Source of the DNA: a virus | Virus record (IMG/VR): IMGVR_UViG_3300028666_000113 | Span: 1-21,685 of that record | Strand: one strand, 5' to 3' | DNA: 21,685 nt | In this document: positions 5,080 through 10,889 of the stretch, in pieces | Numbering within the stretch: the stretch's first letter is position 1 | How the letters are laid out: the number at the start of each line of letters is the position of its first letter | Translations under genes and position numbers: made by a program | Notes under the pieces: generated by a model | What the model was told of the DNA's origin: nothing | The model's database searches: none | What the model saw: only the letters and a program-made list of their open reading frames with translations

Positions 5080-5180
5080 TTTTCAGAAATCCGCCGCCAA
5101 AACCGCGGATGCCCTAACGCCCTTGGGCAAGGCTTTGGTCGCAGCGTCCCGAGCCGTTGCATATTCTCAGGAGAAAGCAC
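5080..5180. other. Gap between protease and capsid genes
   Basis: A 101-base gap, the largest in the head region. It holds a weak 6-bp stem (ATCCGC at 5089-5094 with GCGGAT at 5105-5110, loop 10) and a short GCCC/GGGC element near 5119-5128, neither with a T run. CAGGAG at 5168-5173 serves the capsid start. I see no clear promoter, though extra capsid expression from a promoter or RNA-processing site here would make sense. Confidence 0.4.
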
Positions 5181-6659
5181 ATGGACAAGCTCGCAGAGCT
5201 GGTCAAGAAGCGTGCGGCGGCGCATGAGGCGTTCACCGCGCTTGCCAACAAGGAAACGCTCACGGACGATGAGCGCACGAACTATCCGAAGCTGCGAGCC
5301 GCGGTCACGGATTTCGACGATCAGATCAAGCGCTTCAAGGATGCCCAGACGCTCGAGAGCGAGCGCGCTGTTCCGGTGCGCGAGCAGCTCGACGGCGGCC
5401 CGCGCGTCGTGGTTGAGGGCGATGACCCCTATACCGACGACAAGGTTGCTCAGGCCCGCGGCCTCACAACGTCGAAGGGCTTGCGCGCCATCGCGTCGCT
5501 CAAGATGTTTTCCGCCGCCGGCGGCAATCTGCGTCAGGCCGCAGTGCTCTCATCGGAACATTTCGGCGAACAGCATCCGATCACCCGCGGCTTCGCGGGC
5601 AATCTGCGCGCCGCCGCATCGGATCGCGCGCTGATCGCCGGTGTCGGCGCGTCCGGCGGCTACATCGTTCCGCCCGACTATGTCGCGGAGATCATCGAAC
5701 TGCTGCGCCCGTTGGCCGTCGTTCGCGGCTCGAACCCGCGCGTTCTGCCCATGCCGCGCGGCACGCTGACGCTTCCGGGCCAGGCATCGGCCGCGACCGC
5801 GTCGTATAGCGGTGAAGTCTCCCCCATCGGCGCCTCGCAGGAGACGCTCAACGAGATCATCGCCAGTTACAAGAAGCTGACGGCGCTCGTGCCGGTGTCG
5901 AACGATCTGATGCGCTACTCCGATCCGGCCGTCGACGCCTTCGTGCGTGACGACCTGGTGAAGGTGCTGGCGCTGCGCGAGGATCTCGCATTCCTGCTCG
6001 GAGACGGCACGGCATCGACGCCGCGTGGCTATCTCAGCTTCGCCAACGGCTGGGTGGCGGCGAACGGCGGCACGGTCGGCAAGTGGTCGACCACCGCGAA
6101 TTCGGTCTATGCGGTCAATGCCGCCGATCCGGCAAACACCACTGGCGGCAACTTCATCACGTCGACGGAGTCGTACAATCTGACGACGGTGACGAACGAG
6201 TTGGGCGGCCTCCAGAACCGTCTCGACACGGCCAACGTGGCGGAGTCGCGCCGCATGTGGTTCTTCCATCCGCGCGTGAAGAACTACCTCTACAACGTGC
6301 AGAACTCGCTTGGCGTCTATGTCTTCCGCGAGGAAATGACGGCGGGCAAGCTGCTGGGCTATCCGTTCAAGTGCACGACCCAGATCGGTACGAACTACTG
6401 GGACACGAACGGCGCGAACAAGACCTGCACGTTCATCTTCCTCGCGGAGATGGACGAGTCGATGATCCTCGACTCGATGCAACTCGAGCTCTTCGTGTCG
6501 CGCGAAGGCTCGTATGTCGACTCGAGCGGCAATACGGTGTCGGCGGTCCAGACGGATCAGACGATCATCCGCGCCATCGCCGAGCACGACTTCCAGCTGC
6601 GTCATATGCAGTCGGTCGCCATCGACCAGGGCGTTCTCTGGGCTCCGGCGATCTCGTAA
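5181..6659 (+). CDS. Major capsid protein, HK97 fold
   Basis: Major capsid protein, 492 aa, Phage_capsid (HK97 gp5) family. Residues 1 to about 60 form a charged helical region (L-V-K-K-R-A-A-A-H-E-A-F) like the HK97 delta domain, which is removed by the protease after assembly. The shell domain begins near G-A-S-G-G-Y-I-V-P-P (156-165), followed by the N-arm/E-loop region and the typical Y-K-K-L-T-A-L-V-P-V-S-N-D-L segment and R-E-D-L-A-F-L-L-G-D-G. I chose ATG 5181 with CAGGAG seven bases upstream; the upstream start at 5157 would add eight residues with no Shine-Dalgarno and would bury this site. The exact cleavage point cannot be told by eye but should lie between about 60 and 150. Confidence 0.96.
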   Translation: MDKLAELVKKRAAAHEAFTALANKETLTDDERTNYPKLRAAVTDFDDQIKRFKDAQTLESERAVPVREQLDGGPRVVVEGDDPYTDDKVAQARGLTTSKGLRAIASLKMFSAAGGNLRQAAVLSSEHFGEQHPITRGFAGNLRAAASDRALIAGVGASGGYIVPPDYVAEIIELLRPLAVVRGSNPRVLPMPRGTLTLPGQASAATASYSGEVSPIGASQETLNEIIASYKKLTALVPVSNDLMRYSDPAVDAFVRDDLVKVLALREDLAFLLGDGTASTPRGYLSFANGWVAANGGTVGKWSTTANSVYAVNAADPANTTGGNFITSTESYNLTTVTNELGGLQNRLDTANVAESRRMWFFHPRVKNYLYNVQNSLGVYVFREEMTAGKLLGYPFKCTTQIGTNYWDTNGANKTCTFIFLAEMDESMILDSMQLELFVSREGSYVDSSGNTVSAVQTDQTIIRAIAEHDFQLRHMQSVAIDQGVLWAPAIS

Positions 6660-6669
6660 CCGCCTGAAA

Positions 6670-6689
6670 ATCCCGGCCCGAGCCGGGAT
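6670..6689 (+). terminator. Hairpin after the capsid gene
   Basis: A perfect 8-bp stem, ATCCCGGC (6670-6677) and GCCGGGAT (6682-6689), with a CCGA loop, 11 bases after the capsid stop. No T run follows, so it is better seen as an attenuator or mRNA-stabilising hairpin than a full terminator. It would set capsid expression apart from downstream genes. Confidence 0.65.
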
Positions 6690-6718
6690 CGTTCCAACTT
6701 CCTGAAGGAGCCATCGCA

Positions 6719-7189
6719 ATGGCAGACATTGTCGAAGTCAAGAATATCGCCGCATATCTCAATCCGATCGCGGCGTTTGCATCCACCGCGCTGTCGGCGA
6801 GCCTTTCCAACGGCAGCACGCTCACCGGCATCACCATCAACCGCCTCGCCACCCAGGGCCTCTATCGCTCCGTCGACGTGGTCGCGCTCGTCCGTTCCAG
6901 CGGATCGAGCAAGTACAAGAACAAGGTCAACCTGCGTGTGCAGGACAGCCCGGATGGCAGCACCTGGTCCTCGTTCGGATCGGCGTCGGGCAGCACGCTC
7001 GTGTTCGGTTCGACGTCGGCAACCGGCAAGCAGAAGGTCAAGACCGCCCGCGGCATCGGCCTCGATCTCAACGGCGCCCGCCAGTATGTCCGCGTGAATA
7101 CCGTGCTGGGCTGGTCGGGCACGAACAAGTCCACGCCGGCGAACGTTTCCGGCGTGGCTGTTCTGGGTGGCGCGGACTTCAACAGATAG
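6719..7189 (+). CDS. Probable head decoration / minor virion protein
   Basis: A 156-aa protein, rich in Ser, Thr, Gly and Val, with alternating hydrophobic residues suggesting a beta-sandwich. It resembles a widespread phage family placed directly after the capsid gene, with motifs of the kind V-Q-D-S-P-D-G-S-T-W, then G-A-R-Q-Y-V-R-V and V-A-V-L-G-G-A near the end. That family is usually thought to decorate the capsid; I do not know an assigned function. Start ATG has GAAGGAG eight bases upstream, one of the strongest ribosome sites here, in keeping with a protein needed in many copies. It sits alone between two hairpins (6670-6689 and 7231-7262). Confidence 0.7.
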   Translation: MADIVEVKNIAAYLNPIAAFASTALSASLSNGSTLTGITINRLATQGLYRSVDVVALVRSSGSSKYKNKVNLRVQDSPDGSTWSSFGSASGSTLVFGSTSATGKQKVKTARGIGLDLNGARQYVRVNTVLGWSGTNKSTPANVSGVAVLGGADFNR

Positions 7190-7194
7190 CCGTC

Positions 7195-7212
7195 TTCCGC
7201 CCGGCAGCGGAA
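7195..7212 (+). terminator. Small hairpin after the decoration gene
   Basis: A 6-bp stem, TTCCGC (7195-7200) with GCGGAA (7207-7212), loop CCGGCA, just after the stop at 7187-7189. Weak on its own, but it stands 18 bases before a much stronger hairpin and may protect the 3' end of the mRNA. Confidence 0.4.
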
Positions 7213-7230
7213 TGTGAGTTGCGCGCGACA

Positions 7231-7262
7231 GGAGCCCCGGCGTCTGCCGGCGCCGGGGCTCC
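7231..7262 (+). terminator. Strong GC-rich hairpin after the decoration gene
   Basis: A perfect 12-bp stem, GGAGCCCCGGCG (7231-7242) and CGCCGGGGCTCC (7251-7262), with an 8-base loop, followed by GCTTTCC, a poor T run. It is the most stable hairpin I found and looks like a rho-independent terminator with partial read-through. Only 21 bases separate it from the next start at 7284, too few for a promoter, so downstream genes probably depend on read-through or antitermination. Confidence 0.75.
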
Positions 7263-7283
7263 GCTTTCCGGCAGAGAGATGAC

Positions 7284-8030
7284 ATGAAGATCGCAATTGT
7301 CGGCAGTGGGCCGACTGGTGAACTCGCGCCGTTCGGCGATGAGTCGTGGAGCATGTGGACGCTGGCGTTTCGCGACGCGCCGCGCAGCGACGCGATGTTC
7401 GAGATGCACGCCCGGCCGAAGTGGGTGTTCCATACCGCCGATGGATATATCGAGAAGCTCGCGCGCGCTTCGATGCCTATCTATACGCTCGAGCCTCACG
7501 GCGATATTCCGCACTGCGTCGTCTATCCGCTGGCGGACGTGAAGGCTTCGCTCGCGCCCGCCGGCGCAGAGGCGGATTTCTTTACGTCATCGTTGGCCTA
7601 CATGCTCGCGCTGGCGATCTTTTTCGCGTTTTCCGGCACTGAGCCCGTCGAAGAGATCGGGCTGTTCGGCGCCGATATGTGCGCCGAGGATGAGTATGCC
7701 TACCAGCGTCCGGCGATGAGCTACCTCGTCGCTTTGGCGCGTGGCCGCGGCGTCAAAGTCACGCTGCCGCCGAACTCGCCGCTGCTACGTGCGCACTTCA
7801 CCTATGGCGAGCATCTCGGAGACCATGCGTTCCCGCAGGCGACAGGCGTGACCGCCGACGTGCTTGGTCGCCGCCTCGCGCGCTACCAGAAAGATCGCGC
7901 GGAGACCGAGGTCCGTCTCAACGAGACGATCGCGCGCATGAACACGCTCGACGGCTGCATCGCCGAAGTGAGAGCGCTGATCGAGGCCGTCCGGCACTTC
8001 AACCGCGGCGGAGTGATCGCTGATGCGTAG
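7284..8030 (+). CDS. Rossmann-like phage protein of unknown function
   Basis: A 248-aa protein. The N-terminus M-K-I-A-I-V-G-S-G-P-T-G is a beta strand plus glycine-rich loop like a nucleotide-binding Rossmann start. Further on come F-E-M-H, S-S-L-A-Y-M-L-A-L-A-I-F-F-A-F, I-G-L-F-G-A-D-M and E-Y-A-Y-Q-R-P-A-M-S-Y-L, a pattern I recall from phage proteins of unknown function; a likeness to MptE/DUF115-type or glycosyltransferase-like folds is only a guess. The last 50 residues form a charged helix, possibly a coiled coil. It follows the strong hairpin at 7231-7262, has a weak Shine-Dalgarno (GAGAG), and its end overlaps the next ORF by 8 bases. An enzyme among virion genes suggests modification of a virion or host component, but no substrate can be read from the sequence. 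Confidence 0.7.
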   Translation: MKIAIVGSGPTGELAPFGDESWSMWTLAFRDAPRSDAMFEMHARPKWVFHTADGYIEKLARASMPIYTLEPHGDIPHCVVYPLADVKASLAPAGAEADFFTSSLAYMLALAIFFAFSGTEPVEEIGLFGADMCAEDEYAYQRPAMSYLVALARGRGVKVTLPPNSPLLRAHFTYGEHLGDHAFPQATGVTADVLGRRLARYQKDRAETEVRLNETIARMNTLDGCIAEVRALIEAVRHFNRGGVIADA

Positions 8031-8205
8031 CTTCCTGTTCGCGAAAGCCATGCTCGACGCGGCGCTGAAACGTGAACTCGACGCTGGTCGGCGCGGCAAT
8101 GCCGAATCCTGCGAGCGCGCCATCGCATTGCTCGAACTGCATGAGCAGTTCGAGCCGATCGAAGGAGGACCGGATGACTCTGAGCGCGCACCAGCAGGTC
8201 GTTAG
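8023..8205 (+). CDS. Small hypothetical protein
   Basis: A 60-aa ORF with a helical first half (F-L-F-A-K-A-M-L-D-A-A-L-K-R-E-L) and a second helix C-E-R-A-I-A-L-L-E-L-H-E-Q-F. It starts inside the end of the preceding gene (8-base overlap) with GGAG about ten bases upstream, and ends 32 bases into the following gene, whose AAGGAGG Shine-Dalgarno lies within it. The long downstream overlap lowers confidence, but the sensible composition and coupling favour a real gene. Function unknown. Confidence 0.5.
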   Translation: MRSFLFAKAMLDAALKRELDAGRRGNAESCERAIALLELHEQFEPIEGGPDDSERAPAGR

Positions 8206-8575
8206 CCTCCTCGCGCACCTCAAGCGCGTCGCGTTCAGCGATCCAAAGCGCTTCGACGAGATCAGCGATCAGATCGAAACCATCACGCGGGCGTACATGA
8301 TCCCGACCGTCGGCGATGCGTTCGATGAATTGGATCTGAGCCACTACGAACGGCGTGTGCTTGAGGCGATCGCTGCGCGCGGTGGCCGGACGGTGAACAA
8401 GTCGGGTCTCATGGACGCGGTTTATTTCGACCGACCCCCGTGCGATGTGCCGGACATCAAGGTCATCGATGTATTTGTGCTGAAAATCCGCCGCAAGATG
8501 AGGGGCACCGCGCATTGGATCGCGACCGATTTTGGCGTCGGGTATCGCTATGAACGCCGGGAGATCGCGCAATGA
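8174..8575 (+). CDS. CtrA-like winged-helix DNA-binding protein without receiver domain
   Basis: A 133-aa protein whose C-terminal part (about 53-131) is an OmpR/PhoB-type winged helix. It starts L-S-H-Y-E-R-R-V-L-E, has the recognition-helix stretch D-I-K-V-I-D-V-F-V-L-K-I-R-R-K (94-108), and ends I-A-T-D-F-G-V-G-Y-R-Y. The P-[ED]-[LI]-K-[IV]-I-D-V-F-[IV]-x-K-[LI]-R-[KR]-K pattern is, from memory, the signature of CtrA, the master cell-cycle regulator of alphaproteobacteria, more than of OmpR proteins in general. The phosphoacceptor domain is missing; a helical segment of about 50 residues takes its place. ATG 8174 is chosen because AAGGAGG lies five bases upstream; the frame is open further up but the added residues are Ser/Pro-rich noise. 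It overlaps the next gene by ATGA. Probably binds DNA constitutively; target unknown. Confidence 0.8.
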   Translation: MTLSAHQQVVSLLAHLKRVAFSDPKRFDEISDQIETITRAYMIPTVGDAFDELDLSHYERRVLEAIAARGGRTVNKSGLMDAVYFDRPPCDVPDIKVIDVFVLKIRRKMRGTAHWIATDFGVGYRYERREIAQ

Positions 8576-8784
8576 GAATGATAAAATTCAAGCGCCCAAT
8601 GGCGCCACACGGCATCGGCGACACGCGCGTCGTGCCCGACGTCGTCGCGAAGCGTCTCGTCGAGGATGAGAAAGTCGCGGACTACGAGGCGAGCGTGTTC
8701 GACAAGCCGACTGGCGAGGCCGGCGCCGCGACGCCGCCAATTCCGAAGCGCAAGAGGCCGCTGTTGAAGGGGGCCGGACAATGA
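8572..8784 (+). CDS. Small phage protein of unknown function
   Basis: A 70-aa protein beginning M-R-M-I-K-F-K-R-P-M-A-P. The segment G-D-T-R-V-V-P-D-V-V-A-K-R-L-V resembles a small phage family with a G-[DE]-x-R-x-V-P-x-x-x-A-x-x-L motif often found among head genes. The C-terminus is basic and Pro-rich (P-K-R-K-R-P). It overlaps both neighbours by ATGA (8572-8575 and 8781-8784), so all three are probably made together. A GGAG lies nine bases before the start. Function unknown; a minor head or assembly component is the likeliest. Confidence 0.65.
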   Translation: MRMIKFKRPMAPHGIGDTRVVPDVVAKRLVEDEKVADYEASVFDKPTGEAGAATPPIPKRKRPLLKGAGQ

Positions 8785-9185
8785 GATTCAACTCCTCGGC
8801 CGTCGTAGACGACACCAATCCGCTCCCGGTCAAGACTCTTGATAACGGGCCGGCATGGTCAAGCAACTGGGGTATTGCAGGTGTGCCGTTCACGAGCGCC
8901 GACCAGCACTCTGCACCGGCGAGCGTGACCGACGAGCCCGCACTGGGCCAAATGCTCTGCATCGATGATATTGTCTTCTCCACCGACACGGCGATGAATG
9001 TTACGTTCAAAGAAGAAACCAGCGGCGCGGTGGTGTTCGGGCCTTGGTATGTCGCGGCGAACTCCGTGATCCAGATCACGCCACGCGGCAAGAAGAAATT
9101 GTCGACCGCGAACAGAGCGTTGCAGGTCATTACCAGCATCGCCGGCAATATCACCGTTTCGACGAGCTATCATAGCGAGGCATAG
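8781..9185 (+). CDS. Probable virion protein, unknown
   Basis: A 134-aa protein with strand-rich composition: many Ser, Thr and Val residues, aromatic positions (P-A-W-S-S-N-W-G-I-A-G) and a basic turn P-R-G-K-K-K. No family recognised. Its length, beta character and place between head and connector genes suggest a virion surface or fibre component. Starts in an ATGA overlap with the gene before and ends four bases before the adhesin-like gene at 9190. Confidence 0.6.
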   Translation: MRFNSSAVVDDTNPLPVKTLDNGPAWSSNWGIAGVPFTSADQHSAPASVTDEPALGQMLCIDDIVFSTDTAMNVTFKEETSGAVVFGPWYVAANSVIQITPRGKKKLSTANRALQVITSIAGNITVSTSYHSEA

Positions 9186-9189
9186 ACAT

Positions 9190-9981
9190 ATGCCTGTCGT
9201 CGCCGCCTTCTGGCCGAAGCAGGTGACGTCGTCGTTCGATCCGTCGGCCGTCGCCATCATCGCCGCGCTCACCACGCCGCCGACGCCTATGCGCGCGGCG
9301 ATGATCAATGCAGCGATCGTCGGGTTGAAGAATTCGGGCATCTGGGCGATTACGGACCGCGTATTCTTCCTCGCCGCGGCCAATCAGCAAGCCTCGCTGA
9401 TTGACTGGAAAACCGCAGCAAATCCGATGATGAAGACTGGCTCGTCGGCAAATCCGTCGTTCGTAGCCGACACCGGCTGGACGTCGAACGCAAATTCCTA
9501 TCTTGACACCGGCTTCAATCCGTCGACGGCTGGCGGCAGTTTCGCTCAGAATAGCGCCAGCTTTGTCGTTGGTTCGGCGACTGATATTGCCGAAGCGTCG
9601 AACTCCTATGCGATCGCCGGCAATACTACAACCAAGATCACGACGCGGCGCGCGACGGACGGTCTCTTCAATGCGGTCCCCAATGCCAGCCTGAGTGTGA
9701 ATTATGGCGCGACGGTTAACGGCAAAGGTTTGTTTGGATGGACGCGCACGGTTTCATCCGCCGCGATCGGCTATCGAAACGGCGGCGCCGGCGTTTCTCA
9801 TTCGAGCACATCGACCGCGCTTACCAATGCCACGATCAAAGCTTTGACGGCGGACGGCAGCCTTCTCTCGGCTGATACGCTCAGTTTCCTCTATATCGGC
9901 GGTCCGTTGACAGCGGCCCAACAGGCGGCGCTATGGGCGATTTATAGCGCCTGGCGCGGTGGTCAGGGAGCCACGCCATGA
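9190..9981 (+). CDS. LamG-like adhesin or head-fibre candidate
   Basis: A 263-aa protein. The middle (about 100-240) looks like a LamG/concanavalin-type jelly roll: S-Y-L-D-T-G-F-N-P, then Q-N-S-A-S-F-V-V, several G-x-x-x-K-G-L-F-G-W-type strands, F-L-Y-I-G-G-P-L-T near the end, and a closing helix L-T-A-A-Q-Q-A-A-L-W-A-I-Y-S-A-W. This set is common in phage appendage and minor virion proteins that bind sugars, from my recollection. No signal peptide is expected or seen. The gene is in the accessory block, not with the tail tip, and overlaps the connector gene by ATGA. It could form a capsid- or neck-attached fibre. Confidence 0.6.
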   Translation: MPVVAAFWPKQVTSSFDPSAVAIIAALTTPPTPMRAAMINAAIVGLKNSGIWAITDRVFFLAAANQQASLIDWKTAANPMMKTGSSANPSFVADTGWTSNANSYLDTGFNPSTAGGSFAQNSASFVVGSATDIAEASNSYAIAGNTTTKITTRRATDGLFNAVPNASLSVNYGATVNGKGLFGWTRTVSSAAIGYRNGGAGVSHSSTSTALTNATIKALTADGSLLSADTLSFLYIGGPLTAAQQAALWAIYSAWRGGQGATP

Positions 9982-10889
9982 CGGTTACGATCTCCAAGGT
10001 CATCAACGCGCCGGCGGCTTCGCAGGATCTCACGACACTCGCGATCGTGCGTGACGAACTGAACCTCAAGTCGACCGACACTTCGCAGGACGCATGGCTA
10101 TCGCGATCGATCACTCAGGCCTCAGCGGTCTTCGCGCGCGCCTGCAATCGGGTGTTCTGGCCGGAACTGATCACCGAGACGCAGCAAATTCAGCAGGACC
10201 CCTATCCGCAGCAGACGCCGGGCGGTGTCGCGCCGCTCGTGCTCACGCGCTGGCCGCTCGTCGCCGTGAACTCGGTCGCTCAAATCTATCCGATCAATTT
10301 TAACCAGCCCCTCACTGTCGATCTCGACTACTCGATCAATACTGAGAATGGCGCGCTGACGCGGCTCAACCGCTTCACCGGCGTCGCGGTGACGTGGGAG
10401 GCGGTCCCGACCATCATCAACTATATCGCGGGATATGGGTCGCTCGTTGCAGAGCCGCAGACCGTGCCGGCGTCGCCATACCAGATCGTGCCGGCAAACG
10501 CGTCTGTGTTCTCCTTCGACAATGGCGTGAACTACGCGAGCGGCGGCGCATTTACGAAGGTGACGGGTACGCCGTCCGTCGCCGGCACTTATGCGCTGAG
10601 TCAGGTCAACAATGCCTGGACCTATACGTTTGCGCCGGCGGACCAGGGTGCATCGGTTCTGCCCAACTATGCCTATGCGAATATCCCGGCCGATCTTGTC
10701 GAGGCGTCGCTGCGGTTCATCACCGGACGGTTCTGGAGCAAGGACCGCGATCCGAACTTGATGTCGATCGACCAGCCGAACCTCGGCTCGAAACGTTTCT
10801 GGGTGAACAGCCAGACCGGCGAGAATGGCGCGATCCCGCCTGAGATCATGTCTCTGCTCACGCCATATCGCGTGCCGGCGATCGCCTGA
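9978..10889 (+). CDS. Head-tail connector (gp6-like adaptor) with inserted domain
   Basis: Head completion or adaptor protein, 303 aa, larger than usual for the family. The N-terminal part (L-A-I-V-R-D-E-L-N-L-K, then W-L-S-R-S-I-T-Q-A-S-A-V-F-A-R-A-C-N-R-V-F) and the late I-P-A-D-L-V-E-A-S-L-R-F-I-T-G-R-F match the helical core of gp6-like connectors that bind under the portal. Between them are beta-rich segments, and residues about 165-234 are an inserted module also present in the tail tube protein. The C-terminus contains S-L-L-T-P-Y-R-V-P, typical of the end of the family. Start and stop both overlap neighbours (ATGA, TGATG). Confidence 0.85.
   Translation: MTVTISKVINAPAASQDLTTLAIVRDELNLKSTDTSQDAWLSRSITQASAVFARACNRVFWPELITETQQIQQDPYPQQTPGGVAPLVLTRWPLVAVNSVAQIYPINFNQPLTVDLDYSINTENGALTRLNRFTGVAVTWEAVPTIINYIAGYGSLVAEPQTVPASPYQIVPANASVFSFDNGVNYASGGAFTKVTGTPSVAGTYALSQVNNAWTYTFAPADQGASVLPNYAYANIPADLVEASLRFITGRFWSKDRDPNLMSIDQPNLGSKRFWVNSQTGENGAIPPEIMSLLTPYRVPAIA
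10470..10679 (+). repeat. Passenger domain, copy 1, in the connector gene
   Basis: About 70 codons beginning S-P-Y-Q-I-V-P and ending near Y-A-Y-A-N. Shared landmarks with copy 2 in the tail tube: P-Y-Q-I-x-P, a G-V, P-x-x-G-x-Y, Y-T-F-x-x-A-D-x-G and a final x-Y-x-Y strand. The spacing of the landmarks is nearly the same. The similarity is at protein level; the DNA has diverged. Confidence 0.65.

Follow-up and report, generated by a model that had tools for sequence, protein, structure and literature searches.

A receiver-less CtrA-like winged-helix gene in a variable cargo slot among the head genes of a candidate alphaproteobacterial phage

In many alphaproteobacteria, CtrA governs replication as well as flagella, pili, and gene-transfer agents. 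The chromosomal protein combines a receiver carrying Asp51 with a winged helix, and proteins that retain the latter without the former are encoded by phages. The RDJL Phi1 and Phi2 proteins annotated as "transcriptional regulator CtrA" (ADK73438.1 and AKQ75822.1; 151 aa) have a CtrA-type winged helix at the N-terminus, followed by a C-terminal extension, and their genes adjoin exonuclease and replication genes. The winged-helix proteins of the Paracoccus phage vB_PmaS-R3, RDJL3, and Rhodobacter phages, which are annotated as CzcR-like or HTH, are likewise receiver-less and possess a CtrA-type helix. This kind of protein is therefore already known, since annotated examples date back to RDJL Phi1 and the domain is present in PHROGs; a literature search, which reached few subscription journals, found no publications on receiver-less phage CtrA.

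Phage copies of host regulators from other protein families have been described in phiCbK, which encodes a homologue of the cell-cycle regulator GcrA (PMC3556154) and, as an early gene, the XRE factor TgrL, a copy of a host developmental regulator (PMC10462132). In addition, several phages exploit or need CtrA itself: phage Jorvik requires the host ctrA (PMC10589892), and some alphaproteobacterial phage genomes contain clustered CtrA-type sites that are bound by CtrA in vitro (PMC9437464).

The window, by which we mean the whole stretch analysed here, is a virus record of 21,685 bases (IMGVR_UViG_3300028666_000113, positions 1 to 21,685). It encodes, in this order, the terminase large subunit, the portal, a protease-like protein, the major head protein, a variable region, a connector-like protein, and tail genes (Table 1). 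The tail end comprises DUF2460, Phage_phiJL001_Gp84_N/Phage_BR0599, and Phage-tail_3/Rcc01698_C proteins, a set known from alphaproteobacterial phages and gene-transfer agents; the window is a candidate alphaproteobacterial phage. The variable region holds the gene for a 133-aa winged-helix protein, for which a first-pass annotation had described a strong ribosome site, an ATGA overlap with the next gene, and a position within the structural gene block, and all three descriptions held. No sigma-70-like promoter, as judged by a consensus that may not suit the host, was found in 6500-10200. The lack of a promoter-like site nearby suggests that the winged-helix gene is probably transcribed together with the virion genes.

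Table 1. Positions of the winged-helix gene, its parts, and its neighbours in the window.
Feature	Coordinates	Strand	Basis
Major head protein, upstream neighbour	5157..6659	+	phrog_10, E 3.6e-40
156-aa protein downstream of the major head protein, bounding the cargo slot on the left	6719..7189	+	phrog_5707, E 1.7e-6; kept in relatives
248-aa gene, also paired with the winged-helix gene in the sister	7284..8030	+	L045 homologue, E 1e-70
AAGGAGG ribosome site, separated by 5 nt from the start codon of the winged-helix gene	8162..8168	+	sequence
Receiver-less CtrA-like winged-helix gene, 133 aa	8174..8575	+	PF00486 E 6.2e-10, structure model, sister homologue
N-terminal helical hairpin, residues 3-41, replacing the receiver	8180..8296	+	AlphaFold2 helices; conserved in the sister
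Trans_reg_C winged helix, residues 52-125	8327..8548	+	Pfam
Recognition helix DIKVIDVFVLKIRRK, residues 94-108, CtrA-type K96/F101/K104	8453..8497	+	comparison with CtrAs and paralogs
ATGA stop/start overlap of the winged-helix gene with the next gene; also in the sister	8572..8575	+	sequence
70-aa gene, kept downstream of the slot in several relatives	8572..8784	+	comparison of relatives
Connector-like gene, bounding the variable region on the right	9978..10889	+	conserved in relatives

The 133-aa protein matched a single Pfam family, Trans_reg_C, with a score of 39.5 bits against a gathering cut-off of 26.2 bits. Pfam detected no receiver domain with Asp51 in this protein, which in this respect is unlike CtrA. 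In the AlphaFold2 model (mean pLDDT 86.8), the winged helix was predicted confidently, in blocks from residue 51 onward (pLDDT 94-97), and the N-terminal helices, comprising residues 3-22 and 24-41, were predicted less confidently (pLDDT 73-82). These results bear out the earlier description of an OmpR-type winged helix in which a helical segment takes the place of an absent receiver. A Foldseek search with the model retrieved OmpR-family DNA-binding domains from the PDB, and the best viral match was the "CtrA" of RDJL Phi2; no solved CtrA structure for superposition was recognisable in the PDB by name or close match. A leucine zipper at the N-terminus was rejected by the heptad test for both the window protein (p 0.58) and its sister homologue described below (p 0.26).

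The recognition helix was compared with those of chromosomal CtrAs and OmpR-family paralogs only. Its 15-mer is identical to chromosomal CtrA at 8 of 15 positions (BLOSUM 53), whereas the 28 other OmpR-family proteins share a mean of 5.3 and at most 7 residues with it (BLOSUM mean 28, maximum 39), in agreement with the first-pass annotation, which had placed this stretch closer to CtrA than to the rest of the family. The residues K96, F101, and K104 occur together in all five chromosomal CtrA representatives, whereas among the 28 paralogs K96 was never found, F101 was found in five, and K104 in two. The window protein fits the CtrA-type helix pattern K-x-x-D-V-F-x-x-K, in which these three positions are presumably DNA-facing, by analogy with PhoB-DNA structures. 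It differs from CtrA in having L103 in place of Cys and F120 in place of Trp, and in the sister protein the otherwise invariant R106 is replaced by Asn. The helix counts of viral relatives are not independent evidence, because these relatives were fetched by the pattern P[ED]xK[IV][IV]DV[FMY]. The assignment of a CtrA-type reading helix to the window protein is well supported.

For the protein as a whole, the affinity to CtrA is less clear-cut. The best NCBIfam model was CtrA for both the window protein (35.2 bits; next model, 30.7 bits) and the sister (54.3 bits; next model, 36.8 bits), the window score lying below the 350 bits of the curated CtrA equivalog cut-off, which presumes a full-length protein. 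In the tree, a starred branch (100/94) separates all 28 paralogs from the window and sister proteins, which are joined to each other (100/92) among the receiver-less phage proteins on the CtrA side. The vB_PmaS-R3, RDJL3, and Rhodobacter phage group is nearest to the window protein, at a fork (86/72) that is not starred. Outside the recognition helix, the window protein is no closer to CtrA (about 26% identity to chromosomal CtrA) than to the paralogs. It is conceivable, although we judge it improbable, that an OmpR-family domain of other origin has converged on a CtrA-type helix and recognizes a target that is not the CtrA site. When the helix was masked, the window protein scored 26.3 bits with the paralog profile, compared to 18.5 bits with the profile of receiver-bearing phage CtrAs and 7.9 bits with chromosomal CtrA, which favours convergence, and the AU test did not reject joining the window and sister proteins to the paralogs (p 0.37). 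Conversely, the masked sister protein scored higher with the phage CtrA profile (31.3 bits) than with the paralogs (28.2 bits), the tree topology places both proteins on the CtrA side, and dropping the helix columns still left CtrA-like phage proteins without receiver as the nearest rows to the window protein. The tree with CtrA that had been proposed as a check thus supports the CtrA affiliation in its topology, but weakly, because of the AU result and the helix-masked scores. Descent of the window protein from CtrA is therefore favoured as likely, but is not proven.

Related major head proteins were found in 29 contigs, 18 of which reach the connector gene and therefore span the whole slot; some of the contigs are almost identical to one another. 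Only one of the 18, the sister phage L045 (the same record as L073), carries the winged-helix gene. The sister copy is full length and lies at the same place, between a homologue of the 248-aa gene (7290-8021 in L045) and the same 70-aa gene, whose start it likewise overlaps by ATGA, so that the reading frame in the window is not a chance ORF. The 248-aa protein, which begins with KIAIVGSGPT and appears Rossmann-like by eye, had no family match in Pfam or PHROG. The identity between the two phages is 41% for the winged-helix protein, including the N-terminus, 51% for the 248-aa protein, and about 73-74% for the head protein, and the nucleotide changes fall on the third codon position in 70 cases, compared to 57 and 49 at the first and second positions. 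In the other relatives (L044-L070), little DNA separates the 156-aa protein from the connector, or different genes occupy this stretch; by eye, these resemble genes for glycosyltransferases, radical-SAM proteins, methyltransferases, and an XRE-type regulator. We take this stretch to be a hypervariable cargo slot. The winged-helix gene is evidently not a fixed part of the head operon, as it is missing from 17 of the 18 slot-spanning relatives, and its location in a variable slot indicates an accessory gene outside the morphogenesis programme.

The same rarity might be expected of a passenger that has no selected role. This explanation is very improbable, however, since the frame is intact and preceded by a strong ribosome site, and since the hairpin, the gene order, and the ATGA overlap have been conserved in two phages even though the copies have diverged so far.

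A scan of viral contigs with the single sequence, which was also performed with the 248-aa neighbour, gave no confirmed relatives. A profile scan yielded relatives in 112 viral contigs, of which 80 were kept, and most of the representatives lack a receiver. Their N-termini are diverse: 14 of 46 representatives pass the heptad test for a zipper-like segment (p at most 0.05) and several more look alike by eye, seven have a zinc-ribbon-like segment with CxxC, as does L083 by eye, and the rest are of other types. The window protein, which matched phrog_31800 (E 2.5e-9), belongs with the RDJL-type class of phage-borne CtrA-type winged helices without receiver. It differs from the RDJL Phi1 and Phi2 proteins, to which its domain is 33-41% identical, in domain placement and in lying among head genes, and from the vB_PmaS-R3, RDJL3, and Rhodobacter phage proteins, which are longer, have other N- and C-terminal parts, and are encoded outside the head gene block. 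Among the 41 records with winged-helix relatives, a portal of the window type is present in eight and lies within 5 kb of the winged-helix gene only in the sister. The novelty is thus the head-operon location together with the N-terminus of its own; among head genes, the protein was found only in the window and the sister.

As to its role, there is in our estimate an even chance that the 133-aa protein is a phosphorylation-independent DNA binder of the CtrA type, probably made late with the virion proteins, that acts mainly on CtrA-controlled genes of the host. Having no receiver, it could not be phosphorylated, and it would bind CtrA-type sites whenever made, provided that the hairpin supplies the subunit contacts otherwise given by the receiver, as it probably does. 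Since the gene is exchangeable cargo, action on the host is likelier than action in virion assembly. The targets would be the CtrA-controlled genes for flagella, pili, capsule, the cell cycle, and gene-transfer agents, on which the protein may act as a competitor, a repressor, or a fixed activator. Against this reading speak the departures from CtrA at L103, F120, and, in the sister, R106, the lack of special affinity to CtrA beyond the recognition helix, and the absence of CtrA sites from the window. If made late, it could bar superinfection or pace lysis.

Alternatively, the protein may regulate late, lysis, or lysogeny promoters of the phage itself, with minor effects on the host, which we consider rather unlikely. 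The clusters of CtrA-bound sites in other phages mentioned above would fit such regulation, as would the many relatives that sit in prophage-like or replication regions, often near a GcrA-domain gene; such genes are present in 12 of the 41 records and, as judged from coordinates, are separated from the winged-helix gene by no more than about 3 kb in seven. In the 21.7-kb window, however, which does not include the phage early region, TTAA-N7-TTAA was absent at 0-1 mismatch, and the matches with two mismatches numbered 10 against 12.4 expected, so that the earlier remark on the lack of paired sites was right for this fragment and nothing exceeds chance. Furthermore, the gene is exchangeable and is missing from all of the other slot-spanning relatives, which indicates that the phage plan can do without it.

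The phosphorylation-independent role on the host is supported by the features of the protein and its gene given above, by the importance of host CtrA to alphaproteobacterial phages, and by the repeated loss of the receiver or Asp51 among CtrA homologues of phages. Of the 17 homologues in viral contigs with an intact or degenerate receiver, 11 have lost Asp51 (5 Glu, 3 Ala, 2 Asn, and 1 Gly), whereas all 25 chromosomal CtrAs have kept it; D51E has been used as a phosphomimetic CtrA in Rhodobacter capsulatus (PMC10589892). We tentatively raise the possibility that alphaproteobacterial phages repeatedly evolve a phosphorylation-free CtrA, in some cases through loss of the receiver, in place of which stands a zipper, zinc ribbon, or helical hairpin, and in others through replacement of Asp51, often with Glu, and so lock the CtrA programme of the host into a single state, the window lineage now being exchangeable late-operon cargo. 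A large set of phage proteins with the CtrA reading head but no phosphorylation switch would represent a simple means of keeping host cells in a given state, and such proteins would offer natural phosphorylation-independent variants for probing CtrA function.

The Asp51 replacements were distributed as follows: Glu in L090, L099, L122, L139, and L146; Ala in L088, L109, and L131; Asn in L124 and L134; and Gly in L141. The genes in L122, L139, L146, and L131 lie near a phage-type DNA polymerase, and three of these also lie near an integrase.

In L076, L080, L082, L084, L086, L087, L096, L140, and L151, a second receiver-less winged helix is encoded in tandem, up to about 0.5 kb upstream of the CtrA-like gene. 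Its recognition helix reads VESHxSKLRKK, together with RFxGY, as in L013, and is presumably of the FtcR/Rem type of flagellar regulator; NCBIfam named no FtcR match for this protein. The tandem helix groups with the phage CtrA-like proteins in the tree and may therefore reflect duplication and convergence. In L002, a region of a Rhizobiaceae MAG with phage-like genes, a CtrA-like domain lies behind a degenerate receiver at about 7560-8267, with a GcrA-like protein encoded upstream at 5101-6099.
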